From: Liolophura sinensis
Lineage: Eukaryota > Mollusca > Polyplacophora > Chitonida > Chitonidae
NCBI RefSeq assembly: GCF_032854445.1
Contig: NW_027017957.1
Span: 557,477-621,476, forward strand
Length of the DNA stretch: 64,000 bases
Direction of reading: 5' to 3'
In this document: piece after piece, positions 20,423 to 55,476 of the stretch
How positions within the stretch are numbered: position 1 is the stretch's first letter
How the letters are laid out: each line of letters begins with the position of its first letter
The notes under the pieces: generated by a model
What the model saw: only the letters and a program-made list of their open reading frames with translations
The model's database searches: none
What the model was told of the DNA's origin: nothing
Position numbers and translations under genes: made by a program

Positions 20423-20590
20423 TTAGGAACTCTGATGACCATACTCTTTCTCAGCGCCATATACGACTGACGGTCCCCACTCCTCAAAGGCAATGCTGGC
20501 GTAGGTCGTCATGTTCTCAGAAGGGTGTGTGATGGGTTTGTTGCCCACGAGTTTCGCATCCGCGTCCACCGTTACGCGAGGACTTTTCAT
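20423..20590 (-). CDS. Receptor terminal coding exon: ITSM-type motif
   Basis: Last coding exon of the minus-strand receptor: acceptor ATCACCTCTTCCAG, then 55 codons and TAA. The peptide runs from 'MKSPRVTVDADAKLVGNKPI' through 'THPSENMTTYASIAFEEWGP' to a tail with VVYG and KEYGHQSS. TTYASI matches TxYxxI, the immunoreceptor tyrosine switch motif pattern (TxYxx[V/I]) known to bind SAP/SHP-type SH2 proteins in vertebrate receptors. Three tyrosines are present in all. The peptide frame needs a phase-0 exon upstream, which I did not find, so its link to the rest of the gene is inferred from order, strand and style. It converges on the plus-strand exon ending at 20098. Confidence 0.6.
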   Translation of the reverse strand: MKSPRVTVDADAKLVGNKPITHPSENMTTYASIAFEEWGPSVVYGAEKEYGHQSS

Positions 20591-21304
20591 CTGGAAGAGG
20601 TGATATTTAACAGATAATAACGGTTAAAATATCAGCAGATCAATCTTGTACAACAAACCCTTAACCAATTAGTGAACCTGTTCACACTGTACTGTCTTGA
20701 AACTGTGCGTTCTATCATCAAAGGTTAATTCATCTTTTCCATTACCGAAGACATATTTGAGCATAGTGAACCTATTTTAACGTTTGTATCGTAGTACCTG
20801 AAACCTGTATCGTAATGTCATACTAGGTTTTATCCCGTTTACTCCACAGCTGCTCCGATTCGTCACACTTAGCAATTTCTCAGAAATGAGTACGCTATTG
20901 GCACCGGCGTTTCTTGGGAATGTAACTCTCTGTGTTTTGGGATATCAAGTCCTTTTTGCTTCCATCAGGAGCAGGTTTGAGTTTTAAGGATGAATTTAAA
21001 ATTCTTGGCAAGAGGACACAAGACAGGTGGTGATCAGGCTGTGAGCGACGTCCCCATGGCGTTTCTAGGCACAGCTGCCAGCTTCTAACGTAGAAAGATC
21101 CAGATTTCGGCGGTCAACATTTGTCAAGATTTTCATGGTTGCTTTCTCACAGGAAGGGTCAGGTATTCACCTAATCTTATCGGCCACGAAATGTTTGTGA
21201 CTGAATTATAGCACTAACAGTTTACATGGTGACTTGTGGAAATTTAATACGTTTTTGAGTAATATAACGATGAGCATTCATTAGGTGTGTGTACATTTAC
21301 TGTA

Positions 21305-21560
21305 TCTTCTTGTGGCAGGGCGAGTCCATGCCGCCAAAGTACAGCCGCCACTGCCGCCACTGAACCATCATGCCGAGGATGATATGACACCCCACTGAGT
21401 CAACCCACCGTGTCACAACCGGGCCAACCAATCATGTTTCCTTGCTCTAACCTCTCAATGCTGAGCGCCAAGCAAGCAGCAGCAAGTACCATTTTTAAAG
21501 CCTTTGGTATGACCCGACTTGGGTTTGATCCTCGGGTCTCCCGGATTCAAGGCGGACTCT
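21305..21560 (-). mobile_element. SINE family 2, partial and diverged
   Basis: Recognised from 'cttgtggcagggcg', 'tgctgagcgccaagcaagc' and 'ttgatcctcgggtctcccgg' in the order seen in the fuller copies. It abuts the left edge of duplication unit A. Confidence 0.55.
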
Positions 21561-21756
21561 TAGGTAATGGTATAGCCTACATGTACATGATATAGTGTTA
21601 TACCACTTCACTTCTTGGCATCTCCAATAAATGTGCCCTTGTGCCCCTGTCACGTGCATACCTTGCAGATAGCCGTAGGGTACTTTTGTCATGCATAATC
21701 AGATGTTTATCTACGTGTGTCTGAATTACAAACGAGAGAAAACAGCAAACGTGTAC

Positions 21757-21819
21757 CTGGTCAGGTCTGCAGTTTCCAAGCGGTCATCGTATCCGGAGTT
21801 ATAATACATCACTTCATCC
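21757..21819 (-). pseudogene. Tail exon, unit A: GDEV copy with lost acceptor
   Basis: Unit A copy of the GDEV exon. The frame is open ('DEVMYYNSGYDDRLETADLT') and the donor (ACCAG followed by GTACACG) is present, but the acceptor AG of unit B (GCTAG) reads GCTGG here. Unless another acceptor is used, for example GATGAAG eight bases inside, the exon is skipped. It has an extra tyrosine pair (YYN) not found in unit B. Confidence 0.45.
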
Positions 21820-22000
21820 CCAGCAGAATGGCGATAAGCAAACAACGATACTCGTGTGGCCGTTGCGTAGTCCGATATTCGTTGCACGCAATTGTACCTG
21901 CCTCCGATATGGTGTGCATGTCTGAACATTGTATGTAGGAAAGGTGTCAATAACTTGCCATGATATCAGTGTTTTATGCCAAACACTCATACCTCCACGC

Positions 22001-22151
22001 CGTAAGTGGGAAGGTCTGCCAGCGGATGGTCGTGGGTTTCCCCCGGGCTATGCCCGGATTCCACCCACCATAATGCTGGCCGCCGTCGTATAAGTGAAAT
22101 ATTCTTGAGTGCGGCGTAAAACATCAATCAAATAAATAAATAAATAAACAA
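22001..22151 (+). mobile_element. SINE family 1, 5'-truncated, with target-site duplication
   Basis: Body and tail of the SINE, beginning after the tRNA-like head. It is flanked by ATACCTCCACGC at 21989-22000 and 22152-22163 (12-bp duplication). The equivalent position in unit B (28503-28514) is an empty site, so insertion followed the 6-kb duplication. Confidence 0.93.
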
Positions 22152-23865
22152 ATACCTCCACGCATAAGACAGCGCTGTTGTATGGGTGAACACTGCAGTT
22201 AAACAATAAGAACAAAAATAGGAAAAATGTGACACATGGTGGAACAAATTGTGCTGGCCACGAGTTTAGGGGGTCAAAAAGATTTCATGTTAATAAATGG
22301 GATATGGATGTAGAAATAAAGGATACAAGACCTGTTTTCAAAACAAAACGTCATTTCCAAAGGAAGCCATGTGCAGAAAGCTGATCAGAGCAAACATAAA
22401 GCATTAGAAATGGCAGGACGTCATGTTGCTCAGTTTGGCTTCATATAGATTGTTTCATGGGCCATTCATGGTGTGCATGCACAAGTCAAGATGATAGGCA
22501 AGATGTATGGTAAGTTTCATCAAAATTGGCGCAGTAGTATTTGGGAAGTGATGCATGGACAAAATCGTGTCCACAGACGAACAAACTTCGTCGAGCGGGG
22601 TATAATAATGAAGTATTCTCATATCCAATAATCACACAACAGCTTTAACTGTAACAATTCGATTTATTAAGTTTTTTTACTTCAATTTCTACAATTTTTG
22701 CTTAGTGTAATGTGAAAAAAAAATATCAGATATGTTTCTGTCTCATTATCATCACTATTATTTCATTGATATTATTGAGATTATATCTAGTTATTAATTA
22801 GTTTGTCAAAGGTGCCCTTAAATTATTGACACTGATATCTTTAATATTCTTTGCATTAACGTAAAATGTATGTGGTAAAACAAAAGATTGTGCTTGTAAC
22901 GCAGATGTAAAGTGTCTAGTGTACAGGGGGATATAACAGACTTAGAAAACTCTTAATATCCACGAAGTGTAATATAATAAAGTAGGCTGGTGGTGGATGC
23001 AAACTCGACAATAACATGATCACATCTAAACGACTGAACTCTGTACCGACCTATGGTGGTCCATTGTTGGCTGCCATAGAGCATAAGAAAGTAAGTATAT
23101 CTACATTGTACATACATATGTAACTACTTTACAAGCACATCTGTTTCCTAATAGCAGAAATGATTTGTCTTCTATAAACTATATTCTTATTTCCAAGCCG
23201 GTGGCTCAAAAGCATTATTTATTTTATATTTTACACTTCTCAGTTTTCATAATACACCTGTTCAAGTAATTTGTCTCATAGTTTCTATTTTCTCCCCGAT
23301 TAACTAAATTACGGGGCACAATTACTACATCTGTTAATCTGAATACACAGATGTAATATCTAGTAAACATTCCAAACCCTTTCAAATGTGGAAAAAGCTA
23401 TAATCAACCGTTTTTAATTCTAAACAGGGTTATAATTTATGTACACGTTTAATTCGAATACGAAAATAAAGCCGAACATATAACAATTTGGTTTAAAATA
23501 AGAAAATACCAAAAAATGTTCTTTTTTTGTTCATTTGTATTCCTGATAAATTATACCCGACTGTGGGGAAATACATCACAGTAACATTACTGCGAAAGCT
23601 ATCAAACTATTGCTCGTTAACAACAAGGCTTGAGAAGTGTAGTAAATATTAGGACGGTGATACTAAAGCCTGGTTTTGTATTAGGACATAATGCCAAAAT
23701 ACTCCACAACTATTTACAGTTCAGAGTCACGTCTGCAACTGCGATTTTTTGGCAAGCTTTGAGTGTATATATCCTGTTATTTTGTCCGCACTGCTGCATA
23801 TTATTTTCAGACTCGGTTCAGTGTTTCTTGCAGTAAATAAAAAATATTTAAAAAGTAATTCTCAC

Positions 23866-23925
23866 CTTTTCCATCATTTGGTTTGCCTTTGGTACGACCA
23901 GTTTTGTCACCTTGCATAGAATTCC
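23866..23925 (-). CDS. Tail exon, unit A only: GNSMQGDK segment
   Basis: Candidate exon of 60 bases between ATTTGACAG and AAAAG followed by GTGAGA. Read phase 1 to 1 it encodes 'NSMQGDKTGRTKGKPNDGK', a basic, tyrosine-free linker that joins the preceding YAEL exon in frame. A phase-0 reading is also open. Unit B lacks this stretch: about 1.4 kb is missing there, with a fold-back element at the junction. Confidence 0.45.
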
Positions 23926-24584
23926 CTGTCAAATAATCCCAAAATGTAATTAGACTAAAATAATAAATAGAACACCTTTAGCACATATAGACACCTAGCC
24001 TCAAGTATAATTACAGCAATTACAGAGCATGTCTGTTTTGCTCAGCAAAACATTTCTCATCTGGTATTAATTAAGACTTAATGGAAAGTACAAAGGCTGA
24101 ATAAGTATGGAGACAAGCACATAATGGTTCGGATTTTACTTTACATAATAACTATGCTATACTTCCAATAAGTATATATAGTTGTGGTGATATTTCGTCT
24201 GTGACTTGTGCCATCGTTTACCTGGCTCTAGCTTGAAAATCCTCTTAGCTTTACCGAAGGCACGTTGAAAAAAGGCAAAAATGGAACACAACCTAATTCA
24301 CCATACATTCATGCATTGTATGAAAAGAAATCAGATGATAAAAAGAACTATAACTCACAGAGTACATCCAGAGCAGAGACGAGTGTGGTCCGATGAAAAC
24401 CTACATCTTGGCAATTTACGTCAGTTACGATTATTATTTTAACTGCTTATGTGAATGCTTTAATAGAGGCAAGTCTTACAGCTCTTATCACCGTAGTTTA
24501 AAAAAAAATACTTTTTAAAAATTCAGTTATGATAATACCGATTTGACAAACATTTCAAGTACTGTTCTATCCCCAGCTAAACGG

Positions 24585-24750
24585 CTATTGATAAGGCAGC
24601 TGATTCGAATCCAGTTCTAGCTCTAGTGCGGCCTTGAGCGAGAAGGATTGTGAGGTACATGCCGTATAGCAGTGGTCTACATGTGGCACTGGCACTCTGG
24701 TTTCCTCAACTCATCAGTCTTAACCTCATAATACCAGTCAAATAAAAATG
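24585..24750 (+). mobile_element. SINE family 3, unit A copy
   Basis: Short element with B-box-like 'gattcgaatccag', then 'ctctagtgcggccttg', 'ctctggtttcctcaactcat' and a tail ending 'accagtcaaataaa'. The orthologous copy in unit B is at 30.53-30.74 kb, so it predates the duplication. A separate tail fragment is at about 39.19-39.29 kb. Confidence 0.6.
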
Positions 24751-25217
24751 TACAACAAATCCGATTAAAATTATGTCAAACTGATCAACAAAATATTATC
24801 TTTCTAATTTCATTGTTTGATGATTGGATGAAGATGACTTGGAACAATAATAAACGCTTTGTAGAAATAAACCATGTGGCGTTTAAGGAAATCAAACCTG
24901 TTTTCTTACTGTCTTTCAGTTTTGTTGACTTCATCATAGACTGGACCCTCTGGAGATAAACATTAATTGTAATGAAATATTTTTCATGTTCCTATTGTTA
25001 TTTCCCTTTTTCGATGTCAGGTAAGCGGCTTTTCACGCACAACCTATTGCAATGCACATTAATCCACTTACGACAAATTTGTGATACTTTATATGAAAGG
25101 AACGTTATACTTTGGAAACCTTATAAAACCTTGGAAAATATCCCCTTTTTGTGAGATTGAAAAAATAGCCACAAAAATGAGAAAACATGAAGGTTTGCTA
25201 GCAGCTATAAAACTGAC

Positions 25218-25280
25218 CTTTTGCAGTTTTGCTGATTTTCTTTGCTGTATTTAATTCTGCATAGACCCGTGCTGCTTCTT
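25218..25280 (-). CDS. Tail exon, unit A: VYAEL motif
   Basis: Unit A copy of the YAEL exon, 63 bases, phase 1 to 1, with the same acceptor and donor as at 31.2 kb. It encodes 'EEAARVYAELNTAKKISKTA' plus Lys. The reading frame and both splice sites are unchanged between the two units, while surrounding intron sequence differs by many substitutions and insertions. That contrast suggests constraint on the exon. Confidence 0.66.
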
Positions 25281-26680
25281 CTGAAATTAAAGGTGATACA
25301 CTGTAATGTATATCAATCAATATATGGAATTTCACCACAGACGCGATTAAACTGTGGACGAAAATTCCTGTGAATACAAATGCTTGTTTGTACCTCGTTT
25401 CACTGACCACTAAGCACTATTGAAGACAAAACCCACGATTGCTTTATAAATAAAAAAACACCAGTAAATTGTATTTCCGGTATACTGGACATATATGAGA
25501 ATCGAGGGCAACACTGGAGACGAGAACTTGCTCTAACATATTCAGGAGTCTATAAACCATAAGAATGGGGTTCACCAGTTACAAAGTAAAGTGAATCTTG
25601 TTGCCCATTAAAGTAGTGGCCTCTGCCTTTTTGAATTACACTATAAACTATGGCTATTTAAGATCACTTGCATTGCTACCAAAATGATTTATATTTTTAT
25701 TAAAATAGGTAAAGGGCCCAACTGTACAATACAGTACGGAAGATTTTCTCCACCTTGTAGAAGATCAGTGAACCTCATTAGACATTTCTTACCTACTTCT
25801 TGTATCTTCTAAATTTTTCGCCCACCAAACTAAGAATTTCTCCAATCGCTGATTACAACCTTACATACGTATTTTCGGAATTCGCTTTGATGACATTTTT
25901 TCAAGGTTATGTGGAATTTTATCATAAAAACTGGTGTACCAGACAGGCAATAACATTAGGGTAGAATTTATACGCAACTGTTTTTTGTATCAATAGTTGT
26001 AAGTCCAAAGCATCAGCTAAACAGGTTTATGCGTATACTAAGAGGATGATTCATTACCCGTTCTATTAGCGTTTGAGATAGATTATCATTTAATTAATCC
26101 TGGTTTATATATAGCTTAACTCTTACTTTTATTCTTGTCAACAACAACATACAACCCAACTGATATATTATAACCTGTATCTATCAAATGTTTAGTTAGA
26201 GCACAATTATCCGCGTTGTACCCGAATGTCATCTGGTCCATAGCAAACATTTTGTCCTGTTTTCATTTCATTTTATTCACATATAGACAAATACACATAT
26301 TTTTCCAAGCATTTTTCCAAAATTACTCGTCTGGAATACCAGCCCAGAGAGCATCATGGTTTCCAACAGAAAAAACGGTTTCCGACAGGAAACATCGTCT
26401 CCAGCTTGAAACTATCTTCTGCTAGGAAAATGATTTTGCTGCATTTCTCGCTTTGTGGCGTTTAGTATACTCTGTGTGGTTTGTGACTCTCTTGTGTCTT
26501 ACAATTCTTTTGTAAGTGAATATGGGAAAGGCGTTTAGAATCTCTGGCATTCTGGTTCATGCATGTGTCCAATCTGGCTTAACCCATGACATGAGCCCGT
26601 ATATTCATCGTGTTGAATGAGGGCGTCACGTAGGATATGTAAACTATTGCACCAAAAGGCTGCGGAAATACATATTTTAT

Positions 26681-26922
26681 ACTGGAAAAGGCATTGCTTA
26701 TGGATTTACAACTTCTTGGTGTATTGTCAGGACGTTTCGATACAGATACTAGCATCGTTATCAAGTCGCTTGAGATACTATTATCTTTATTAAGTCACTT
26801 GATAACGATGCTAGTATCTGCATCGAGACGTCGTGGCAATAAACCAAAACGTTGTAAATCCATGAGCAATGCCTTGTCCAGTGTACTTACGTGCCCACTT
26901 CTAAATCTCATTAAAACAAGTT
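26681..26922. mobile_element. Palindromic insertion with 11-bp target duplication, unit A only
   Basis: Two arms of roughly 95 bases face each other (left 'gatactagcatcgttatcaa' is repeated inverted at 26.8 kb) around a spacer of about 15 bases, followed by about 40 unpaired bases. The whole is flanked by ACATATTTTAT at 26670-26680 and 26923-26933. Unit B has one uninterrupted ACATATTTTAT. Possibly a fold-back element or an insertion made by twin priming. Confidence 0.85.
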
Positions 26923-27236
26923 ACATATTTTATTAACGACTTTTGTTGGTTTGTGTCAAACGTCATTTTGTTAATTGGTATTGCGATTATTGACCTGGTA
27001 CGTACATACTGGCTAACGGATGATATATGAATGTCCGTTTTGGGCGCATAGATTCATGTAGGTGCCATTGAGCTGACGTGTGCCTGAGATATCAGAGAGA
27101 CCGTCTATATTATGTGAGGCTTTTCGTTTATATATAAAAAAATTGCAGGAATGAGAGTTACATATATTTTGCATTAGCATACGCTGTTATAAACGCAGCC
27201 GGAGAGCTATATCCTCTTTTAATGGAGTATACTTAC

Positions 27237-27280
27237 CTAAGCTGGGCATGAGATCCACCTTTTCACAGACTCCAATTTTT
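27237..27280 (-). CDS. Tail exon, unit A: VCEKV, tyrosine lost
   Basis: Unit A copy of the YEKV exon, 44 bases, phase 2 to 1, with a good donor (TTAG followed by GTAAGTA). It encodes KIGVCEKVDLMPSL: the single tyrosine of the unit B copy is Cys here. The frame and sites are intact, so the exon may still be spliced as a spacer without a phosphosite. Confidence 0.52.
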
Positions 27281-27752
27281 CTAATAAAAGATGGGAATGT
27301 ATTGACGATAAACAGCTTGATGAAATAAGCATCTTGTTCACCTGAATCTTAAGCGATGTAGTAACATCAAATCTAAAATACACTACACAAAATGTATCAT
27401 TACCCATACTAAATGTTTCAACCTGCAAAAAACTGCTCTTTCAAAAGATGTAAAACATTATCCAAACATGTGAAAGAAAGGTTAACTTTGAGTCTAGTTA
27501 TGAACATACATAAAGCATGGAAACGGTTATTTTATTTTCTGTAACAAAAAGACGCGGATTCTTAAGTAATGCTATCTTGTACATGGTATAATGTTATACC
27601 AGCTCATTTCGTTGCATCTCAAATAAATGTGCCCCTGTGTCCCTGTCACGTCCATGCTTTGCAGATAGCCGTAGAGTACTTTTGTCGTGTATAATCAGAT
27701 GTCTTTCTACGTGCGTCTGAATTACAAACGCAAGAAGACAGCAAACATTTAC

Positions 27753-27815
27753 CTGGTTAGGTCTGCGGTTTCCAAGCTGTCATCGTATCCGGAGTTATTA
27801 TTCGTCACTTCATCC
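27753..27815 (-). CDS. Tail exon, unit B: GDEV/SGYDD segment
   Basis: Candidate exon of 63 bases, phase 2 to phase 2, between TTTTGCTAG and ACCAG followed by GTAAATG, encoding 'DEVTNNNSGYDDSLETADLT'. It joins in frame to the 2-to-1 exon that follows at 27237-27280. The acidic segment around a single tyrosine resembles a phosphorylation site. The unit A copy (21757-21819) has a broken acceptor. Confidence 0.5.
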
Positions 27816-28299
27816 CTAGCAAAAGCCTTATTGCCAAACGTGTCCACAGAAATTTGGTCTGTTTAAAGACAAAGGCATACATAAACGTGTGAACTACCTG
27901 AATGAAACTGTTTATCTTATATATGTATATATACATGCAATGAGCAATTTACTGTTCAAGAAGATCGTGTGGATGGCTGTGAACTTCCAAGTGTTCGCTT
28001 ACATTGAAATATCATTTTACCATCATTTCAAACTTGTTTACTTATCCATCAAACAACTTCTGTCTCAAACGTTGTTTTATGTGAGACGCATGTATAACTT
28101 ACACTAGACACAATTTGAAGATGAACCACACAGCGCGTGGTCCTTGATAACAATAAGCGATTAACCACATTCATGTGGTCGTTGCGTAGTCCAGTATTTG
28201 TTGCATACGATTGTGTCTGTCTCCAATATGGTGTACATGTTTGAACATTGTATGTGGGAAAGGTGTCAAAAACTTGCCATAATATCAGCGTTTTATGCC

Positions 28300-28498
28300 G
28301 AGCATTTCCGACCCTTTATATGGAGGACCAAATGAACATTAATCGAAAATTATCAGTTTAGAAAAATAAATTATCGATATCAATAAATCTCTATCGATAA
28401 ATATCGTTAATCCATTTATCAATATCTCTTATTCATTTATCGATATGGCTAATTCATTTATTGATGTGTACAATTCTCGATTAAATGTTAATTTAGCC
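28300..28498. mobile_element. AT-rich TIR element, unit B only
   Basis: About 200 bases absent from unit A. Ends pair as inverted repeats (AAATGAACATTAATCGAAAATT against the reverse complement of AATTCTCGATTAAATGTTAATTT). The interior is a run of TATCGATA-type palindromes. A non-autonomous MITE-like element. Confidence 0.7.
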
Positions 28499-29439
28499 AC
28501 TCATACCTCCACGCATAAAACAGATTATTGTCGTATGGGTGAAAACTGCAGTTAAACAATAAGAAAATAAATAGGAAAAATGTGACACATGGTAGAAAAA
28601 AATTGTGGTAGCTACTCCTTTAGGGAATATAGAAGATTTCATGTGAATAAATCGGATATGGATAAAGGACCCAGTGTGAATTTCGACATCCGTATATCAG
28701 TCGCAGACTACGAGACGTTCCTAAGTCGATAACCGCAAGATCCATTCTCAAACCGAAACGTCATTTCCCAAGGAAGCCATATGCAGAAAGCTGATCAGAG
28801 CAAACATAAAGCGTTAGAAATGGCAGGACGTCGCGTTGCTCGGTTTGGCTTCATATAGATTGTTTCATGGGCCATTCATGGTGTGCATTTATTGCACAAC
28901 TGGTATATCAAGCTTGAGTGGAGAAATGTAATGAGATTACAGTGTTCATGAAAATCCATTATTGCACTTAGTCCTATATGGGGGTAAATCTAAAAACAAT
29001 TGCCCAATTGCCATTAGTTTTAAACACGCACAAGTTGAGATGATAGGCAAGATGTATGGTAAGTTTCATAAAAATCGATGCAGTTGTTTTGGGGAGGAGA
29101 TGCATGGACAAAATCGTGTCTACAGACGGACGTACGAACAGACAGGATTATATATTACAGTAAGCCTCCTAACGCCTTCGAGCGTAGGGGATGCCGGGGG
29201 GGCGGGGGTGGGGCGTATAGTAATGATATATACTTATATACATTAATCATACAAAATCTTCAACTGTAAAAATTCGATTTTTTCAGGTTTTTTTTTACTT
29301 CAGTTTGTGCAATTTTGCCTAGTGTAATATGAAAAAGAATATCAGACATGTTTATCCTCACTATTTAATACTTCATATATATTATTGACATTATATCTAG
29401 TTATATGTTAGTTTCAGACAAGTAGAGATGTCATTTTTA

Positions 29440-29857
29440 GAAAGTGGAGTAAGTAACAGTATTATCGTTAAAAGGTATTACACTTTCTGAATATAGCACA
29501 GATCCTAGTGCTGAAATTTAGTTGAAACAACTGCGGGTTTCGAACCAGCGACCTCAGAGCCAGGCACCAAATCACCAGCAATACATGTTAAACACCTAGA
29601 TCACTCGACCAATAAGTCTTCCACTAAGAAAGAAAGTAGTTGACCGGTAGAGTTTACAGCGAACATGCATTACCCCTCTGATGATCACAAATGACACAAT
29701 TCCCTTAGACGAATATATCAGACAAGTACAGATGTCATTTTTAGTAAGTGGTTCGAAACGCGCGGTGGTCTCAGCCAAATTTCAGCACTAGAATCTGTGC
29801 TATATTCAGGAAGTGTAATCCCTATTAACGATAATACTGTTAATTAATCCACTTTTC
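29440..29857. mobile_element. Fold-back element with about 90-bp inverted arms, unit B only
   Basis: The left arm (29440-29530; 'gaatatagcacagatcctag') is repeated inverted in the right arm (29760-29857). The interior holds 'ggtttcgaaccagcgacctc', a B-box-like piece. It occupies the junction where unit B lacks 1.4 kb of unit A, including the GNSMQ exon. Confidence 0.75.
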
Positions 29858-30529
29858 GTTTCCTTGGCTCTGGGGTGAAAACACCCTTAGCTTTACCGAC
29901 GGCACAATGTAAAAAAGACAAAAATGAAATACAACCTGATTCACAATTCATTAATGCAATGTATAAAAACAAATCAGGTGATAAAAAGAACTACAACTCA
30001 CAGAGTACATCCACAGCAGCGACCAGCGTTGTTCCATGAAACGTAAATCTTGCCAATGTACGTCAGTATTACTTTAACTGTTTATGTAGATTCTTAAATA
30101 GAGGCAAGCCGTAAGCCCCTATGACCAGAGTCTAAGCAAAATTAGATTTAAAAAATCAAGTGATGTCAATTGTGATTTGATAGACGTCTCCGGTCTAAAA
30201 TTACTTAAAATGCTGTGGTATAATTACATATAACAAATATTTTTTACGTGAAGCCATTGTAAACCAATCAGACCTGGGTGGTGCTTAGTCCACCAGAATG
30301 TTGGTTTATGCAAAATGCATGTACAATATAAAACAATACATATAGAGTAAGACCAGAATCCTGACGGTAAACGGTCACACGAAGCCAGTGAAATCCGGCC
30401 TGTCGTCAATTTGTACCAGGGTTTTACTCTAAAAAATCATTAAATAGGAGCAACTCACGCATCCCCTACCGTCGCGGACTTACAACTGATGCAGTTATGT
30501 CTGAAGTAAGGAATTTAGTACTGTTTTGT

Positions 30530-30740
30530 CCCCAGCTAAACGGCTAATGATAAATAATGCTGCAGACACGAATCCTTCTTTAACTCTAGTGCGGCCTTGT
30601 TTGTCAGATACATGCCGTTGAGCGGTGGTCCCCACATGGCATTGGCACTCTGGTTTCCTCAACTCATAAGCCTGAACGCCTTATACAAGTAATACGTTCT
30701 TGTGGACGGCAAGAAACACCAGTCAATTAAAGATATACTA
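30530..30740 (+). mobile_element. SINE family 3, unit B copy
   Basis: Same element as at 24.6 kb; this copy keeps a longer 3' part ('cttgtggacggcaagaaaca'). It shows that the insertion was already present before the 6-kb duplication. Confidence 0.6.
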
Positions 30741-31211
30741 CAAATCCCATTAAAATTATATCTAACTGGTGAACAAACTTCTATTCTTCTCATTCCACTG
30801 CTTAATGAATGGATGAAGTCCTCTTGGAATAATAATGAACGCTTGGCAGAAATAAAATGTCAACCATGTGTCGTGTAAGGAAATTAAGCCTGTTTTCTCA
30901 TTGGCTTTTAGTTTAGTTGACTTCATCATACACTGAACCCTCTGGAGCTGAAAATTAACTGTAATAAAACATTTTCATGTTGTTCTTGTTATTTTCCTTT
31001 TCCCATGGCAGGTAAACGAATTTTCTTTCACCACGTATTGCAACATACAATAATCTACTCATCACAAATTTGAAATGTTTAATATGAAAGGAACGTTATA
31101 CTTTGGCTGTTAAAGCCTTGGAAAAAATCCCCTTTTTGTGAGATTGAAAAAAAACAAAACAAAAACACTAATGAGAAAACATAAAGGTTTGCTAGCAGCT
31201 ATAAAACTGAC

Positions 31212-31274
31212 CTTTTGCAGTTTTGCTGGTTTTCCTTGCTGTATTTAATTCTGCATAGACCCGTGCTGCTTCTT
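31212..31274 (-). CDS. Tail exon, unit B: VYAEL motif
   Basis: Candidate tail exon of 63 bases, phase 1 to phase 1 (acceptor TTTAATTTCAG, donor AAAAG followed by GTCAG), encoding 'EEAARVYAELNTARKTSKTA' plus Lys. It can follow the transmembrane exon directly in frame. YAEL is a YxxL motif; the -2 residue is Arg, so it misses the strict ITIM consensus. It could also act as an endocytosis signal. The copy in unit A (25218-25280) differs at two residues only. Confidence 0.66.
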
Positions 31275-31699
31275 CTGAAATTAAAGGTGATACACTGTAA
31301 TGTATATGAATAAATATATGGAATTTCACCATAGACTCGATTAAACTGTGAACTAAAATTCCTGTGAACACAAGTGCTTATTTGTACCTCGTTTCACTGA
31401 CCACTAAGCACTATTGAAGACAAAATCCACAATTGCTTTATAAATAAGAAACACCAGTAAATTGTATTTGGGGTATACTGGACATATATGAGAATCGAGG
31501 GCAACACTGGAGACGAGAACTTGCTGTAACATATTCAGAAGTCTATAAACCATAAGAGCGTTGTTCACCACTTTATTACAAAGTGAAGTGAATCTTGTTG
31601 CCCATTAAAGTAGTGGTCTCTGCCGTTTTGAATTACACTATAAGCTATGGCTATTTAAGATCACTTGCAGTGCTAGTCAAATGATTTATAATTTTTATT

Positions 31700-31960
31700 G
31701 GCCTCCGTGGATCTGTCGATTAGCGCGCTAGCGCTTCGTAATGACCCAGGAGCCTCTCACCAATACGGTTGCTGTGAGTTCAAGTCCAACTCATGATGGC
31801 TTCCTCTCCGGCCGTAAGTGGGAAGGTCTTCCAGCAACCTGCGGATGGTCGTGAGTTTCCCCTGGGCTTTGCCCGGTTTCCACCCACCATAATGCTGGCT
31901 GCCATCGTATAAGCGAAATATTCTTGAGAACGGCGTAAAACACCAATCAAATAAATAAAT
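31700..31960 (+). mobile_element. SINE family 1, full length, with target-site duplication
   Basis: Complete copy: tRNA-like head (ggcctccgtgg... with a B-box-like 'gagttcaagtcc'), body, 'attcttgagaacggcg' and an AAATA tail. It is flanked by ATAATTTTTATT at 31688-31699 and 31961-31972. The matching place in unit A (about 25691-25701) is uninterrupted. Transcription would be by RNA polymerase III, with mobilisation by a partner LINE. Confidence 0.95.
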
Positions 31961-33213: not shown

Positions 33214-33257
33214 CTGGGTTGGGCATGGGATCCACCTTTTCATAGACTCCAATTTTT
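33214..33257 (-). CDS. Tail exon, unit B: VYEKV motif
   Basis: Short candidate tail exon of 44 bases (acceptor TTTTATTAG, donor CCAG followed by GTAAGTA), phase 2 to phase 1, encoding KIGVYEKVDPMPNP. YEKV is a tyrosine-based SH2-docking-like motif. The same exon occurs in the other 6-kb repeat unit at 27237-27280, where the tyrosine codon TAT has become TGT (Cys). Splice sites are kept in both copies. Confidence 0.58.
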
Positions 33258-33510
33258 CTAATAAAAGATGGGAATGTATTGACGATAAACATTTTGATGA
33301 AATAAGCATCTTGTTCAATGGAATCTTAAGCATTCAACAACTACAACAATACACTACACGAAGTGGATGATTACCACTGAGTGTAAAAGTTACTAAATGT
33401 TTCAACGCGAAAGAAAATATTGCTTTAACATGTGAAAGGAAGGTTAACTTTGAGTCTAGTCATGAACACATATAATACATGAAACCGGTATTTATATTTT
33501 TTGTAACAAA

Positions 33511-38440: not shown

Positions 38441-38842
38441 ATTCTGACTCTAAAATATGTGGTCGTTTAGACATTTTTAAGTACGTACCCAAATTCGTTT
38501 GGTCGTGGGGAACCAATTTTTTGGGGGTACAATCCACCAGATCCTTTTAACAGTAAATTGTTAATTGTTACGACCAATATATAGCACGCAATATGCCAGT
38601 TTCAACTGTTCCTCTAAGGATACAGTGTGTAAAACGTAAGTGACGACTGGTCTTGGAGTGTCTTTAAGCATCTTACTTACTGTTCGTCTGCGGAAAACCC
38701 TAAACCTGTGGGGGGAAAAAGAGAAAAAAAAACTTCAATTGTTACTTTTTTAAATTAAATACAAGCCTGTCCGTCTATAGTGTTGTCAGAGATTGCGGAA
38801 ACGTAAGTTCCACTGTACTCTCCGATATCAGCTTGTGTATGT

Positions 38843-39343: not shown

Positions 39344-40425
39344 TCATTTCTCACCTGAAACGTTTTCGTAATGTCTGGTTGATTGCACACCATTTGATAT
39401 CTCATCCGGTCTCATCTGCCTGTCAGAAAAAAATAACAGCCTCCAGTAATTATACCAAAAATGAATCTTCAGAACTCTAGCGTGTTATGATCACACGCTT
39501 GTTTATTTAAAGGCGTGTATAACTGAAATGTCTATTATTAATATTAATATTAATATTATTATATTCTGACACTTATGTTGACAGCTCAGTTATACTTACA
39601 ATAAGTCGTTATATGTGACACAAATAATTCATATGATTGTCAAACTTACCCTGTTTCTCCTGAAGACCTGCTACCTGAAAGAGTACACCGAAAGCGTTTC
39701 ATTTCTTGACAGCCAAGATGTGTATCGACAATGTACATATGCGTACTTAAATAATTTCTACATTTATTTGTTACCAGTACTTTCTGGAAGCTTGTTTGTT
39801 GGAAACATGAACGGTACATCACAAAGACTACATCATGGAAAGAGTGAAATTTGCATTGATGTTTTAAAATTTTATCGAAAAGACTTAGCACTGGCTTTCA
39901 AAACATCAATGCTCATACCGCAATCTCACTGTTGTTCCTACCACAAGCTTTAAGTAATACATAAGAAGAATTAATTTGATACCCCCCCCCCCCTCCTCCA
40001 CCCCAAAGATTCACTAGGAATACAATAAATTGGGAGTCAGGAAATATACATTACATGGTGAGACGTATATGGATAAAAACAACTCAGTTAATAAACAAAG
40101 AAGAGAAAAAAAGCAAACCTACTGTTTCAAATAATTTGCACAGTTTACTGCGGAATGTAAAAAATAATCCAATGATTTTACAGGTCAATTGACATCCGTT
40201 AGTTCCACACAAAACAAAAATAATAAAAACAGTAGCAAGAATACAGATAGCAAAGGTATGATGCCGCAAAAAAAGCATTTTTTTATTTTTAAATAATTTT
40301 TGCTTCTCCATGTAGTACTGTTTGTCCATCTACGGCTTATATGCTCTTTGCTATCTGGATTAATACGATTTTTTTCAAAGTTCGTTATAACTTTGCTTTC
40401 GCCCACTGAAAATGACCACAACTAG
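39344..40425. repeat. 1.1-kb tandem duplication, copy C2
   Basis: Direct copy of C1. Its far end contains the broken 3' half of the transmembrane exon at about 40.39-40.42 kb ('gaccacaactagaag'). There the membrane end reads VVVIFSGRKQ, and the donor GT is lost. That piece cannot act as an exon. Copy C2 also holds a C-rich run near 39.98 kb. Confidence 0.85.
39355..39419 (-). CDS. Tail exon copy C2: YENV motif
   Basis: Second copy of the YENV tail exon, produced by the 1.1-kb tandem duplication. It encodes the same peptide except Met for Ile at the second residue, with the same acceptor (TTTCTGACAG) and donor (CAG followed by GTGAGA). Phases are again 2 to 1. Two consecutive 2-to-1 exons cannot be spliced together in frame, so C1 and C2 would have to be mutually exclusive or separated by an exon that I have not found. 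Confidence 0.58.
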
Positions 40426-40454: not shown

Positions 40455-41620
40455 ACACTTCTCACCTGAAACGTTTTCGTAATGTCTGGTTGATTGCACA
40501 CCATTTGATATCTCATCCGGTCTTATCTGCCTGTCAGATAAAATGAGACTGATAATACTAAAATATTAATCTACAGAACTCCGGTGTGTTACGATTATAC
40601 ACTTGTTTATTTAAAGGCGTGTATAACTGAATCGTCCATCATTAATATCAATATTATTATATTTTGACACCTACGTTGAGAGCTCAGTTATACTAACATT
40701 AAGTCGTTATATGTCACACAAATAATTCATCTGATTGTCAAACTTACTTTGTTTCTCCTGAGGAACGGCTACCTGAAAGAGTACGAACAGAAGCGTTACA
40801 TTTCTTGATAGTCAAAATGTGCATTGACAATGTATGTATGTTTACTTGAATAATTTCCACATTTATTTGTTACCGGTGCTTGTTTTTCTTGGAAACATGA
40901 ACGGTACATTACAAAGACTATATCATGGAAAGAGTGACATTTGCGTTGATGTTTTCAACATTTTATCTCAAGATTAAGCACTAGCTTTCAAAACATCAAT
41001 GCTCATACCGCAATGTCACTGTTGTTCCTACCACAAGTTTTAAGTAATGCATATAAAGAATTAATTCGCCCCCACTACCCCAAAGATTCACTAGGAATAC
41101 AATGAATTGGGAGTCAGAAAATATACATTTACATGGTAAGAAGAATATGGCACCAGTGCTCATGTCGCAATCCCACTGTTGTTCCTAATATAAGTTTTAA
41201 GTTACACATAAACAGAACTGATTCGAAAAACACCACCAAAGATTCACTATACATGTGCATGGTAAGAAGAATATGGCTAAAAATACACCAGTTAATACCC
41301 AAACAAGAGAGTTATTAACGGTTTCAAATACAGTCTACTGCGCACTAAGAAAAATAATCCAATGATTCAACAGGTCATCTGATATCCGTTAGTACACTAC
41401 ATCACAACAATAAAGCAACAGTAGCGAGAATATAGATTACAAAGCTGTAGTACTGCAACAATGCAATTTTTATTTAAAGGCATTTTTGCTTCTCTTTGTA
41501 CTACCGTTTGTCCATCTACGGCTTATATGCCCTTGCCTATTTAAATTAACAAGGGTTTTTTTTACCGTACGCCATTACCTTGCTTTCGCCTACGCAAGAT
41601 GACCACAACTAGAAGCACAA
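40455..41620. repeat. 1.1-kb tandem duplication, copy C1
   Basis: Copy nearest the transmembrane exon. It runs from the YENV exon up into the 3' half of the transmembrane exon, so the breakpoint lies inside a coding exon. Shared blocks with C2: the YENV exon, 'gtttatttaaaggcgtgtat', 'gttgttcctaccacaag', 'aaagattcactaggaata' and 'catctacggcttatatgc'. A further internal partial repeat ('atggtaagaagaatatgg' twice, 41.13 and 41.26 kb) is present only here. Confidence 0.85.
40466..40530 (-). CDS. Tail exon copy C1: YENV motif
   Basis: Candidate cytoplasmic-tail exon encoding 21 residues, 'QIRPDEISNGVQSTRHYENV' plus Ser. The acceptor is ATCTGACAG and the donor TTTCAG followed by GTGAGA. YENV fits the YxN consensus for Grb2-type SH2 domains. 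In the peptide frame the exon begins phase 2 and ends phase 1, so it cannot follow the transmembrane exon (phase 1) directly. Direct joining would give an immediate stop (Gly-Arg-stop). An intervening exon, or the tandem acceptor four bases downstream (phase 0), would be needed. A nearly identical copy lies at 39355-39419. Conservation of peptide and splice sites in both copies supports coding use. Confidence 0.62.
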
Positions 41621-41701
41621 CTCCCATTAAAACGATAGCTCCAGAGATGCCGCCTGCCAGGGGGCCGGTTAAGGCACCGGGGGCACCAGGGGAACCGGGA
41701 G
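41579..41701 (-). CDS. Receptor exon 6: stalk and transmembrane segment
   Basis: Encodes a Pro/Gly-rich stalk ('APGSPGAPGALTGP') then about 23 hydrophobic residues ('GAIVLMGVVLLVVVIL') and a basic stop-transfer run (RRRKQ), giving a type I membrane protein. The acceptor is TTCTGTTGTAG and the donor CAAG followed by GTAATGG; both are phase 1, matching the FN3 exon upstream. The 3' part of this exon has been copied, in damaged form, into the tandem duplicate at about 40.39-40.42 kb. Next in the direction of transcription are the candidate cytoplasmic-tail exons. Confidence 0.86.
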
Positions 41702-42980: not shown

Positions 42981-43271
42981 CTGTAACTGTACAACTCGTC
43001 TCTACCGTGTCACTTTTATTCCACCTGTTGAAACCGTACACCCTGAAGCTGTATTCTCCCCTCTCCTCGAGACCCTTCACCACCTCGCTCACAGCCATAT
43101 CCTCTCCCGGGTCTGTTATGTTATCAGGTAATTCAACCCAATGGCCAGCCTTCTTTTTGTACAGGAGTTTAAACGTCTGGGTAGAACCGCCATTGAAACA
43201 GGAAATCCACGTCACGTTGGCCATACGGTTTTCACAAAATGTGGTTGTTAAAATAGGTGGACAAGGACGAT
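42981..43271 (-). CDS. Receptor exon 5: fibronectin type III domain
   Basis: Encodes one FN3 domain, 97 residues, phase 1 to phase 1. The acceptor is AATGTTCCAG and the donor GTTACAG followed by GTAAATG. Marks of the fold are 'DRPCPPILTTTF' at the start, 'VTWISCFNGGSTQTFKLLYKK' with the B-strand Trp, and 'GEYSFRVYGFNRWNKS', where the Tyr/Phe core and N-x-x-N loop are typical. Cysteines at the start, after the Trp and near the end could form an internal disulfide. It is the membrane-proximal domain and joins in frame to the transmembrane exon. Ig domains followed by one FN3 is a common adhesion/receptor layout (nephrin- and sidekick-like proteins), which does not by itself tell function. Confidence 0.9.
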
Positions 43272-44338: not shown

Positions 44339-44692
44339 CTATTAAGTTAAAAGATATGATTGTCTCAGAAGATCCCACGTCATTTTCAGCAACAAATTTG
44401 TATTGCCCAAAATCATCACGTTTAACGTCAGAGATTTCTAGTTCCGCCAAGTGACCTGAAAGCTGGACTTCGGCCTTGTTAAATAGAAACTTGTGGATAG
44501 CATCCGTCACGCGACTTCGGTATTTACTCCCGGATGAGTTAGAGACGGTTAGTTTTTCAGCTGTACCATTGATAAGTTTGTACCACGTCAGGTTCACATA
44601 GGCTGGATTAGACACAAACTTAAACATCAGTCTGATATTTTCACCGAGCGCTGCTGCTTGTTGGTTGCTTTGTCTGGGAAACTGTGGTCGGG
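44339..44692 (-). CDS. Receptor exon 4: cysteine-less Ig domain 3
   Basis: Encodes a third Ig-like domain, about 118 residues, phase 1 to phase 1. The acceptor is TTCTTTCCCAG and the donor AATAG followed by GTAATG. The fold is recognised from 'VNLTWYKLINGTAEKL' (C strand with Trp) and 'LAELEISDVKRDDFGQYKF' (E-F hairpin with the D-x-G-x-Y signature). Both canonical cysteines are absent: the first position reads 'IRLMFKF' and the second 'GQYKFVAEND', each Phe. Such I-set-like domains without the disulfide are known, so this is probably genuine rather than decay, because the rest of the domain is well kept. Several NxS/T sites (NLT, NGT, NSS) are present. Confidence 0.88.
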
Positions 44693-49273: not shown

Positions 49274-49585
49274 ATTGTACATTGAGTGTGTAGACTTGTG
49301 ATCGTACAGGATGATCGGTCACACTGTTGGAGGCGTTACAGTACAGCTTAGCTCCGTTCTCCTCGGCACTAGCTGTAAACGTGAATGTCCGGGTTGTAGT
49401 CTGTACCGAGCTGGATTCCTGGTTACAGTATCCTGGGTCTAGCTCCCGGATATTAGCGGACGTCCTTATGTATGCCCTTATACAGGCCTGTGGTTTACTG
49501 GCCGATGACACACAGGTTAAGGTGGTGGGGTTACCGGCGAACACTGCATCTGGAGGGTTCGTCATAGTTACCCGGGTAACCATAA
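49274..49585 (-). CDS. Receptor exon 3: immunoglobulin domain 2
   Basis: Encodes the second Ig-like domain, about 104 residues. The acceptor is GTTCTGCAG; the donor is CAAT followed by GTGAGT, a strong site. Both boundaries are phase 1. 'NPTTLTCVSSASKP' holds the first Ig cysteine and 'NGAKLYCNASN' the second with the usual YxCxAxN pattern. The expected tryptophan (IRWY) is replaced: the sequence reads 'ACIRAYIRTS'. Two further cysteines ('QAC', 'GYC') could make a second disulfide. The domain end 'SQVYTLNVQ' is a normal G strand. About 5 kb of intron separates it from Ig1 and 4.6 kb from Ig3. It resembles nephrin/KIRREL-type C2 domains in general form; no orthologue is assigned. Confidence 0.9.
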
Positions 49586-49792: not shown

Positions 49793-50050
49793 TTTATTTA
49801 TTTGATTGTCGTTTTACGCTGTACTCAAGAATATTTCACTCATACGAAAGCGGCCAGCATTTTGGTGGGAGGAAACCGGACAGAGCCCGAGGAAACCCAC
49901 CACCATCCGCAAGTGGTTGTAGACCTTGTCACGTTCGGCGGGAGAGGAAGCCAGCATGAACTGGACTTAAACTCACACCGACGGCATCGGTGAGAGGCCC
50001 CGGAGTCATTGCACCGCGCTGGGATGCTAAGCACCTCGGCCACGGACGCC
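49793..50050 (-). mobile_element. SINE family 1, diverged, in the Ig1-Ig2 intron
   Basis: Nearly full-length reverse copy, from 'tttatttatttgattgtcg' to 'cacctcggccacggacgcc', with many substitutions in the head. Confidence 0.88.
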
Positions 50051-50268
50051 ACTCCATTGTCTGAAGTCCTAGTATCCGTGTGCAATACCCTGGTTGTATG
50101 TAAAAGAAAAGACCACATGGGTGAATCATTATATTAGATTGTACAGTGAAGCAGGGTCGTAGTCCAATATCCTACGCCCATCGTGGCCGGGCCAAACATG
50201 GGCTGTCCGGCCGTCATACGCGCAACCTGATCCTATCCCTAGTGCCATCCTGACCTGATCGTAGGCCC

Positions 50269-50306
50269 ATGGTACGCCCATCATGGTACCATCATGGGCG
50301 TACCAT
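50269..50306. repeat. 38-bp near-perfect palindrome
   Basis: ATGGTACGCCCAT at each end in inverted orientation around a GGTACC centre, with a single mismatched pair. Lies in the Ig1-Ig2 intron within a locally GC-richer stretch (50.15-50.33 kb) that has several GGCCC/ATGG words. Confidence 0.88.
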
Positions 50307-50309
50307 CCT

Positions 50310-53300: not shown

Positions 53301-54600
53301 TGTGAGCTTGTGTTTCACCACTTGCTAATTTTTGAAACGTTATTTTGGAGTTTGCTTCGCTTATTGTCTCTTTGTGCTATTCATACATTTCATACCAATT
53401 TACCCTGAAAATGACTTTGTGTATATTTCCCTGGAGTGAAACATACATCGCCAGCTCGGCATCGCGGACGCTACTGTCAATCCGCCCACCCTGAGAGGTT
53501 ACACCTTCACAGGCAGTTGGGGATCAACCATCGTCGGCGCGACGTGTCCATTACAGCTTGTCACTTATCGGACTGTCATACTTTGTCTGGGAAATTCCTC
53601 TTAACTGTAGATTCTATATTTACGTGGACTGTCTCGCCTGTGTAAACTGGAATATTCTATCCGGATTTGGACGCTGTCATCAGTAAGATATTATGTATAT
53701 TTTGTAATTATTTGTATGGTTTTGTATATTGTTCTTATTTGTATTATTTGTCTATTTTGTTTAAATGTAGGTATTGAACTCATTCAAGCGTGTTCGTGTT
53801 TCTTTGTTTGATCTTGTGTAAGGCCTATCGCTGATCTAAGAGTTTAAACAAGCCAGTTGTTGCTCCTTTATAATCCATACCCTGATACCTGCTTAACACT
53901 TCTGAGCATGACGAAGAGACGTATTTAATGCAAAATATCATAATGGATTTTAAACAACACTAATGAATTTTTTATATAAAGTGGGTATAACTTTGCATAC
54001 ATACTCATATACACATATATGTATATATATTACACTATCCACATTCAAACATTTAACAAATTTAATTTCATGCTAGCAAAACTATTATATACGACATATA
54101 CGACGATGGCCAGCGTTATAGTGGGAGGAAACCGGGAAGAAACCAAAGGCCAGAGCTTCCCATGTATAACCGGAGCCTTGGTTTTAGGACGTTTATATCG
54201 ATACACACATGTTCATATTATACACACTGCAAACGGTGGTTGTTAGTCCGTTACAATGCAATGTATACATAAACTCGTAATACCCCAGTAATGAAGCAAG
54301 GGGTTGCGTTTTGCCGCCTAGTGTTCAAGTTACTTCTTGGTAAAGTATTACTGAAAGGGTAAAAATTTTTACAAGGCAGAAACTTAAAGCCTCGCAAAAA
54401 CACCCCTCAAGACACCGGGTGTTATCATTTACATATTTATATTATTTAAGTTGACTGATCTGTTGGGGCTAGGATAATGCTGCATGCTTTCCTGTTACAT
54501 AGTGTTAACGTAATGTGTGCATAACGGTCTATATACGTTTTTTCTCATTTAGTGTAACTTCAGGCAGCGTGTTATTACGGTTAAACTACATGTGCCAGAG
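50310..54600. other. Ig1-Ig2 intron, no further exon recognised
   Basis: No Ig-like frame was seen. A GC-richer patch at 53.44-53.67 kb ('gccagctcggcatcgcggac') is unexplained. A missed small exon here would resolve the phase problem at the end of Ig1. Confidence 0.5.
54090..54180 (-). mobile_element. SINE family 1 short fragment
   Basis: Body piece 'tatacgacgatggccagcg' through 'gtataaccgga', reverse orientation, in the Ig1-Ig2 intron. Confidence 0.65.
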
Positions 54601-54662
54601 ACAGGTACAGATATATACGTATACTGTAAGCGACACAGGTTCAGTTGAGTATTTGTACCTGC

Positions 54663-55001
54663 CTTTAATATCCAGTGTAACGCTGTCCTTGCTTGCATAC
54701 TGACATCTCCATTCGCCCCGGCCCGTGTCTAGAGTGACGTTTTCTATCGTGACTGTGTAAACCTCTGCACCGTTGTCGTGTCGACATCCCCCTGATAACC
54801 CATCTGATGACTTTGTCTGTATTGACGGTGTACAGTTTCGGGAGGCGTATATACGGGATGAGTTAGAACCAAAATCACGGTACCATATGAGAGATAAAAG
54901 GGGATTTGTTGACCTGTTTATCTTGCACTCCAGGGAAAATGGACGACCGGCCACGACATCACCTGGTGCTGAGATTGACTGACTGGATACAGGATGTAGA
55001 T
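54663..55001 (-). CDS. Receptor exon 2: immunoglobulin domain 1
   Basis: Encodes the first Ig-like domain, 113 residues, after the acceptor TTTTCATTAG. The canonical cysteines are in 'FSLEC' and 'GEWRC', the C-strand tryptophan is in 'LIWYRD', and 'TVTIENVTLDTGRGEW' fits the E-F region. A second cysteine pair ('RNC', 'GGC') may form an extra disulfide. NxS/T sites (NRS, NSS, NCT, NVT) suggest glycosylation on the cell surface. The 3' boundary is uncertain. A phase-1 exit, needed to join the next Ig exon, requires a GC donor (AAAG then GCAGGT at 54663). The nearby GT donor (GGCAG then GTACAA) would end the exon at 54659 in phase 2. The Ig identification itself is secure. Confidence 0.88.
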
Positions 55002-55412
55002 CTAATGAAAATTTAAAAAATTCTTTCATTCAGAGTTATTAAACCTAGATGGCGTGCCACCCTTTACAGAAAAAAACATGATTCCTTATCAGATAGGAAA
55101 AAAATAGACGTCAAACATACATATTACGTTTCCTGATCTCGACAGACAGATGTCTTAGCCATAAGAACGCTATCAATTACTAAAACTGTGTCAATAATCA
55201 TGTCTTCATTAAGCGAAATCGAATGCACATACACGTGTACGAAATGTGCAGAACGGAGTGTTAATTTTGCATGTGTCATTCTATTAACAGTATACTATTA
55301 ATACTGCCAGTGATTTGTACGAGTATGCTATGGTATTTAGGAATGCACACTATAATACCAGTTAAAATGCAATATTTGACACCTGAGGAAAGAATATCGT
55401 CTAAAACTGTAC

Positions 55413-55476
55413 CTGCAAATATGCATGAAGTGATAAACACAGTCAACAGGACCTCTCTGATGAACGCGTCGCTCAT
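55413..55476 (-). CDS. Receptor exon 1: signal peptide
   Basis: First coding exon of the minus-strand Ig-superfamily receptor. It starts at an ATG and encodes 21 residues (MSDAFIREVLLTVFITSCIFA): a short charged n-region, a hydrophobic core and small residues at the end, typical of a secretory signal peptide. It closes with GCAG followed by GTACAGT, a good donor in phase 1. The single leftover G joins AT at the start of the next exon to make GAT (Asp), so the frame continues into the first Ig domain. Phase-1 splicing after the leader is usual in Ig-superfamily genes. The transcription start was not located. Confidence rests on the signal-peptide shape plus the matching phase. Confidence 0.82.

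Follow-up and report, generated by a model that had tools for sequence, protein, structure and literature searches.

Clustered genes for receptors with immunoglobulin (Ig) domains, a fibronectin type III (FN3) domain and a transmembrane (TM) segment, as well as tyrosine-bearing tails varied by splicing, are each already known, and what is said of them here follows the available parts of the cited sources. The clustered Ig genes of the pearl oyster Pinctada fucata, which often have a C-terminal FN3 domain and a TM segment, differ between haplotypes (PMC9646362), and oyster CgIgIT2 is an Ig receptor with a tyrosine motif, reported in haemolymph immunity (review PMC11999971). In Botryllus, the tails of the fester co-receptors (FcoR) bear immunoreceptor tyrosine-based inhibitory motifs (ITIM), hemITAM or YxxI/L/V motifs, which are swapped by splicing at some loci (review PMC12065747). 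In arthropod Dscam, tail exons with SH2-binding motifs or immunoreceptor tyrosine-based activation motifs (ITAM) are skipped or included, and the skipping of one exon in Daphnia shifts the frame of the next (PMC6851185). Polymorphic single-pass receptors with Ig, FN3, and C-type lectin domains lie in diverse clusters in Biomphalaria sudanica, one with high nonsynonymous diversity in the ectodomain (PMC10875847). The present analysis concerns a stretch of 64,000 nucleotides (nt) from the chiton Liolophura sinensis (contig NW_027017957.1, positions 557,477 to 621,476), referred to as the window, the minus strand of which is predicted to carry, from 55476 to 20423, a single receptor gene with a leader, three Ig exons, an FN3 exon, a TM exon, and tail exons. 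At a probability of about 0.65, we read it as a member of a clustered, lineage-expanded group of type I receptors (V-like Ig1-Ig2-Ig3-FN3-TM) with a cassette-built tail, in which a 20-nt microexon, Z, would be the connector to the last exon and the tail tyrosines would signal.

By its layout, the chiton family resembles the P. fucata cluster of Ig-FN3-TM genes, in which copy number varies between haplotypes and the number of Ig domains is variable; unlike the chiton family, the oyster genes have neither a tyrosine-motif tail nor microexon cassettes, as described in the available part of the paper (PMC9646362). CgIgIT2 is likewise a mollusc Ig receptor bearing a tyrosine signalling motif, but it combines five Ig domains with a single ITAM/ITIM-type motif, whereas the window gene has three Ig domains and FN3 with a multi-cassette tail (PMC11999971). 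A sequence-only reading of this stretch, made before any database search, had supposed that no molluscan gene with such a layout was described, which is too strong for the ectodomain in view of these two cases (PMC9646362; CgIgIT2 in PMC11999971). FcoR, too, are type I Ig receptors that are encoded in clusters and bear a variable-type Ig domain; these tunicate proteins differ in having sushi and C2 Ig domains, and the available part of the review names no FN3 and describes no 25-nt half cassettes (PMC12065747). A sushi domain had no match in the four chiton ectodomain exons scanned against Pfam. Motif-bearing tail exons and a frame-shifting exon are shared with arthropod Dscam, but Dscam is one large gene with ectodomain diversity arising by splicing, whereas the chiton family consists of many genes with short ectodomains (PMC6851185). 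The Dscam architecture (9 Ig - 4 FN3 - Ig - 2 FN3 - TM in one gene) is not that found here, which is 3 Ig - 1 FN3 - TM at about 18 Ig3 loci among the matches listed. The B. sudanica receptors are similarly single-pass, clustered, and Ig/FN3-bearing, one of them with a variable ectodomain, yet they have TMEM154 and lectin domains, and no tyrosine cassette string is described for them in the available text (PMC10875847). Clustered Ig receptors are also found in the Hydractinia Alr family, a cnidarian allorecognition complex with V-set and I-set domains and with ITIM/ITAM on candidate genes (PMC11999971, PMC12065747). Among open-licence PMC papers, the literature yielded no molluscan description of the frame-locked tail combination outlined below. 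Adhesion proteins of the nephrin/SYG-2 type have many Ig domains plus FN3; three Ig exons were found here, and SYG-2 is a weak PDB sequence match of the Ig2 region (E 6.9e-06).

Organization of the receptor gene

The exons of the window gene are the following, the ectodomain preceding the tail.

55413..55476, minus strand: leader exon (MSDAFIREVLLTVFITSCIFA), ending in phase 1; region 93% identical to that of the neighbouring gene g2, GT donor kept
54663..54968, minus strand: Ig1 exon, phase 1-1; V-like by a weak Pfam match, most variable of the domains, with a GC donor in the window copy
49274..49585, minus strand: Ig2 exon, phase 1-1; Pfam match
44339..44692, minus strand: Ig3 exon (I-set), phase 1-1; Pfam match
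42981..43271, minus strand: FN3 exon, phase 1-1; Pfam match below cut-off
41579..41701, minus strand: stalk and transmembrane exon, last residues RRRKQ, phase 1-1
40748..40772, minus strand: 25-nt microexon X1 (SRSSGET), phase 1 to 2; from paralog comparison
40466..40530, minus strand: YENV exon 1, 65 nt, phase 2 to 1; motif at 40481
39650..39674, minus strand: 25-nt microexon X2, phase 1 to 2; from paralog comparison
39355..39419, minus strand: YENV exon 2, phase 2 to 1; motif at 39370
38681..38705, minus strand: 25-nt microexon X3 (LGFSADE), phase 1 to 2; from paralog comparison
33214..33257, minus strand: YEKV exon 1, 44 nt, phase 2 to 1; motif at 33244
31212..31274, minus strand: YAEL exon 1, 63 nt, phase 1-1; motif at 31257
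27237..27280, minus strand: second YEKV exon, reading CEKV, with cysteine in place of the tyrosine; its phase allows it to replace YEKV exon 1, not to follow it
25218..25280, minus strand: YAEL exon 2, phase 1-1; motif at 25263
23866..23925, minus strand: 60-nt tyrosine-free exon, phase 1-1
23051..23070, minus strand: 20-nt microexon Z, phase 1 to 0; final codon TAG in the window copy
20423..20590, minus strand: last exon; in phase 0 gives TTYASI at 20509, in phase 1 a 24-residue tyrosine-free end

Every junction from the leader through Ig1, Ig2, Ig3, and FN3 to the TM exon is in phase 1, and the sequence-only reading, which had proposed this series, was confirmed in its positions, now assigned to the minus strand. 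In the Pfam scan of the ectodomain exons, Ig3 lay above the I-set cut-off and Ig2 marginally above that of C2-set_2, and Ig1 (E 0.00012) and FN3 (E 0.001) fell under the curated cut-offs. The closest solved structures by sequence are generic Ig/FN3 proteins: titin, SYG-2, CADM4, and Dscam. A single-sequence AlphaFold model of Ig1 had a mean predicted local distance difference test (pLDDT) score of 57.

The TM exon leaves in phase 1, yet the YENV and YEKV exons begin in phase 2, the gap being filled by 25-nt microexons located upstream of them. These are of two sorts, X (SRSSGET-like) and X3, both leading from phase 1 to 2, and an X or X3 together with a YENV or YEKV exon forms a cassette which enters and leaves in phase 1. 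The YAEL exon (63 nt) and the tyrosine-free 60-nt exon are symmetric on their own. The microexon phases (1 to 2; 1 to 0) exactly complement the gaps between the larger exons. The frames earlier given to the YENV and YEKV exons were right, but they require the 25-nt microexons, which had been overlooked.

The YEKV and YAEL exons were doubled by a tandem duplication of ~6 kb (window 21582-27354 and 27578-33331), and X-YENV with part of the TM exon by another, of 1.1 kb (window 39.2-41.7 kb). The second YEKV exon is out of frame after the first, which makes them alternatives to each other. Were all in-frame skips permitted, the window copy would have 144 in-frame tail paths with 0 to 5 tyrosines, a count of possibilities drawn from exon phase and not of transcripts. 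With the exons joined in their conserved phase, and with the second YEKV exon and Z omitted, the predicted protein runs for 652 residues between the leader and the phase-1 stop, and its motif tyrosines lie in the order YENV, YENV, YEKV, YAEL, YAEL; this longest in-frame tail would have five motif tyrosines and no TxYxxI at its end.

Conservation of the tail exons

Eleven tails were compared, namely that of the window gene, those of g2-g6 on the same scaffold (C18), g7 and g11 (C1), g8 (C162), g9 (C62), and g10 (C310), and short pieces from further copies were added to these 11 tails. Cassette number and intactness vary from gene to gene, the YENV exons being, for example, three in g4 and one in g8. 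For copies found elsewhere in the genome, the numbers of copies, AG acceptors, GT donors, and open frames were 17/16/17/17 for X (one piece starts at the exon itself), 27/27/27/26 for the YENV exon, 14/14/14/14 for X3, 16/15/15/16 for the YEKV exon, 25/25/25/25 for the YAEL exon, 9/9/9/9 for the 60-nt exon, and 8/8/8/7 for Z; the last exon had AG in 19/19 copies and a frame open to the family stop in 15 of them. Outside these counts stand an acceptor-less YENV remnant on C93 and a YEKV copy on C62, for which the alignment does not cover the exon start. The YENV exon of g10 has a one-base insertion. The motif tyrosine is conserved in 24 of 27 YENV, 15 of 16 YEKV, and all 25 YAEL copies, and the hydrophobic residue at +3 is mostly conserved too. 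The window TM-exon probe matched 8 of the 11 genes, with GT in all 8 and the acceptor in place in 3, since indels in the stalk shift the apparent exon start; the TM frame was open in g6 in a separate check, and the TM exon of g11 was also seen. Splice-site weight matrices proved too strict for the receptor exons.

In the frame test, six of the seven exon types were open in all or nearly all copies solely in the claimed phase, and X was open in two phases. As judged from these alignments, what is conserved in the tails is the open frame, the splice sites, and the tyrosine plus its neighbours. The tail string of YENV, YEKV, YAEL, and TxYxxI segments described by the sequence-only reading is thereby borne out as to motifs, splice sites, and frames kept among copies, except that the second YEKV reads CEKV and TTYASI is unreachable in the conserved frames of the window copy.

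The last exon and microexon Z

The last exon provides an end with TxYxxI, the pattern of the immunoreceptor tyrosine-based switch motif (ITSM), in phase 0 alone, and in the window copy it meets a stop in every phase. Z was the sole consistent phase 1-to-0 exon found in alignment scans of 10 genes; candidate connectors of 7, 8, and 10 nt before the last exon were rejected, having poor acceptors or being unshared. Z is open in 7 of the 11 genes (g5-g11), TAG-ended in the window copy, and missing from g2, g3, and g4 owing to a common 235-nt deletion with identical breakpoints. When Z is lacking, reading enters the last exon in phase 1, and most of its 19 copies then stop after ~24 residues with no tyrosine, C32:110246, with one tyrosine, being an exception to such an end. 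Phase 1 was rejected as the frame conserved in this exon: over the 17 of 19 copies that were aligned, phase 0 was open along the first 108 nt in 17/17 and phase 1 was stopped in 17/17. Because Z ends in TAG and skipping it gives phase 1, TTYASI, real as it is in the DNA, is probably not present in the protein of the window copy. An earlier tyrosine of the last exon (LIYADMDF and similar) is kept in the group comprising C162, C62, C310, and C1:60.64, and lost in the C18 group (VDAD).

Two other TxYxxI matches, at +6664 and -55765, were rejected as exons, as both lie within one shared sequence, which we take to be a common repeat.

The gene family

Scaffold C18, 621 kb long and part of a 609-Mb genome, has the window at its right end. 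A genome search gave at least 99 matches to Ig1/Ig2 and at least 36 to Ig3/FN3, spread over small scaffolds and C1, where most fall at 58.3-62.8 Mb, and 19 last-exon loci were counted besides the Ig3 loci mentioned above. C18 carries seven genes in head-to-tail order, with an Ig3-to-Ig3 spacing of 79-121 kb. Small scaffolds may partly be alternative haplotypes, and the copy number is therefore uncertain. In 15 of the 19 last-exon loci, that of the window included, the matches listed include a same-strand Ig3 located 11.4-29.3 kb upstream, with no other last exon between the two. This linkage argues that the ectodomain and the tail belong to one gene, as had been claimed together with the modular, exon-encoded nature of the tyrosine tail, and contradicts the alternative of different genes for the two parts. 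The matches to the YAEL (21), YENV (27), and YEKV (15) exons lie mostly in the same loci.

A region of C1 (58.26-58.59 Mb) contains packed Ig1/Ig2-like exons, some ~1.1 kb apart, and is nearly devoid of Ig3/FN3 matches (one weak FN3 at 58.52 Mb); from these matches it appears to be a related family of different architecture.

Variation among the ectodomain domains

The mean rates of nonsynonymous (dN) and synonymous (dS) substitution were 0.31 and 0.35 for Ig1 (17 copies, two of them protein-identical, no stops; ratio 0.90), 0.16 and 0.36 for Ig2 (16 copies; 0.44), and 0.12 and 0.14 for FN3 (8 copies, one stop-bearing; 0.87), the gene sets differing from domain to domain. As compared across these copies, Ig1 is the most variable domain, set apart by the amount and pattern of change. 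Its changes cluster from the first cysteine to about alignment column 60; the proportion of nonsynonymous differences (pN) exceeds that of synonymous ones (pS) in columns 35-60, and columns 60-85 are conserved. The divergence of Ig1 in close pairs is similar to or above that of the flanking introns, with pN of 0.23 vs 0.16-0.19 in introns for window-g2, 0.20 vs 0.12-0.14 for g3-g5, and 0.10 vs 0.07-0.12 for g2-g4. The ratios for Ig2 in close pairs are also near or above 1, from few changes.

Proposed signalling by the tail and alternative explanations

In the mechanism we propose, a variable ligand would be bound by Ig1, tail tyrosines would become phosphorylated, and the phosphorylated tail would dock SH2 proteins. 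Phosphorylated YxN binds Grb2-type SH2 domains, and YxxV/L binds SH2 phosphatases or kinases; YEN would be a Grb2-type site, and the YxxV/L motifs phosphatase- or kinase-type sites. The number and kind of cassettes in each gene would fix the strength and type of signalling. The role of the receptors is most likely in immune or self/non-self recognition, in keeping with a variable membrane-distal domain within a multigene cluster. The layout, Ig domains followed by FN3 and TM in clustered genes, is that of the clustered molluscan receptors. The ITSM of SLAM and PD-1 type receptors has the consensus TxYxx(V/I), and no such motif is expected in the expressed tail of the window copy, TTYASI at 20509 arising in phase 0 only. 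The ITIM/ITSM part of the sequence-only reading was not supported as stated, the ITSM-type exon being out of frame here and the other motifs departing from the strict ITIM. Its proposal that splicing tunes the output is allowed by exon phase, with the 144 in-frame paths, but the variation demonstrated is that between paralogs.

Several observations weigh against the reading of the family as clustered signalling receptors with cassette-built tails. The strict ITIM, (I/S/V/L)xYxx(V/L) according to the part of PMC6851185 available, is matched by none of the window YENV, YEKV, and YAEL motifs, in which the residue at -2 is R (TRHYENVS), G (IGVYEKV), and R (ARVYAEL), respectively. That the receptor exons are spliced into one transcript is something we infer from the genomic sequence. 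Among the matches listed, four last-exon loci have no Ig3 of their own (C93, C32:110246, C1:60726379, and C32:186049; the next Ig3 upstream of C1:60726379 has a closer last exon, and C32:186049 sits ~8.5 kb from its contig end), and a last-exon match is missing at 3 of the 18 Ig3 loci. The dN/dS of Ig1 is below 1, that of Ig3 is 0.64 (10 copies; mean dN 0.08, dS 0.12), and the FN3 ratio is so near that of Ig1 that dN/dS by itself fails to single out Ig1; in distant pairs, the flanking introns have diverged more than Ig1. Relaxed constraint or gene conversion may be the source of the Ig1 pattern. In the tail, pN/pS in the claimed frame is not low (X 0.28, YENV 0.87, X3 1.03, YEKV 0.67, YAEL 0.55, 60-nt exon 0.95, last exon 0.91), and it is lower in another frame for five of the seven types (YENV, X3, YEKV, the 60-nt exon, and, marginally, the last exon), so purifying selection on whole tail peptides is weak or not measurable. 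The window copy itself has possible signs of decay.

The last of these points raises the question whether the window copy is in decay or represents an alternative haplotype, retained as a source for gene conversion, which we consider unlikely. The GC donor at the end of its Ig1 exon (window 54661-54663, minus strand) stands against GT in six other aligned C18 copies, the tyrosine of its second YEKV exon is replaced by cysteine, Z ends in a stop, and the small scaffold may represent a haplotype of the C1 cluster that was left unplaced; yet the 652-residue frame is open from the leader through to the phase-1 stop, and GC donors are in use in animals. Regulated alternative splicing within each gene could instead be the main source of tail diversity, the inclusion of microexons switching the frame between tyrosine-rich, ITSM-bearing, and tyrosine-free tails. 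Such splicing is a possibility we lean against without dismissing it. The cassettes entering and leaving in phase 1 can be skipped in frame, which makes all those paths legal, the two YEKV exons of the window gene are mutually exclusive by phase, and its last exon, stopped in each phase, gives TTYASI in one alone. Motif exons are optional in the Dscam tails of Daphnia and shrimp, and splicing exchanges motifs at some Botryllus FcoR loci, according to the available parts of PMC6851185 and PMC12065747, respectively. Duplication alone, however, also yields symmetric exons, and the loss or breakage of Z in 4 of the 11 genes resembles gene-by-gene fixation rather than regulation.

The tyrosine motifs could also be sorting signals of the YxxO type that set surface level and endocytosis instead of docking SH2 proteins. 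YxN, YxxV/L, and TxYxxV/I motifs all double as such signals, YENV, YEKV, YAEL, and YASI match the AP-2 YxxO pattern, and their hydrophobic +3 residue is mostly kept; endocytosis, though, would need one or two signals, and several copies with conserved neighbours (YEN, YxxLN/VN) would better suit SH2 ligands, which makes sorting as their principal role rather improbable. That the tail segments are chance matches or parts of other genes is scarcely credible: they are tiny and widely spaced, and we estimate that a single four-residue motif could arise by chance in 64 kb, but the same-strand linkage, the conserved splice sites and frame, and the complementary phases all speak against it.

Other features of the sequence

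A 57-bp minisatellite of 9 copies (window 11105-11650, plus strand) reads AYAELYTIMRQSSRDSEPS directly after a good splice acceptor. Arrays resembling it occur ~9-11 kb past the last receptor exon in five C18 units, that of the window included, and also at C1:60.73 Mb; in-frame stops are present in the window copy and in five others read, and the array may either be what is left of an exon, now decayed, in a convergent gene or have arisen by chance. At window 19721-20098, plus strand, there is a 125-residue open frame with TYTSII, the left flank of which resembles the minisatellite flank. Eight consecutive matches to the molluscan-type haemocyanin domain, which mark the animal as a mollusc, were also recorded, one unit matching haemocyanins of known structure, including KLH1.

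Significance for the chiton family

It may be suggested, tentatively, that these are germline-diversified receptors variable at both ends, in which the V-like domain would set specificity and a frame-locked tail kit the output. The kit would consist of half cassettes, a 25-nt microexon plus a tyrosine exon, and of the 20-nt frame-gate, which would decide whether the ITSM-type exon is translated; output would vary through cassette turnover between genes and possibly through regulated microexon splicing within a gene. The question how invertebrates, which have no antibodies, diversify recognition and choose activation or inhibition is still open, and one cluster of this kind would allow a direct test, as the parts for specificity and for signalling vary independently and the frame-setting microexons predict which motifs each gene can make. 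If true, this would connect immune-type signalling with the duplication of cassettes and the splicing of microexons, as a parallel to Botryllus FcoR and arthropod Dscam, and mollusc receptors may diversify both recognition and the signal that is sent.

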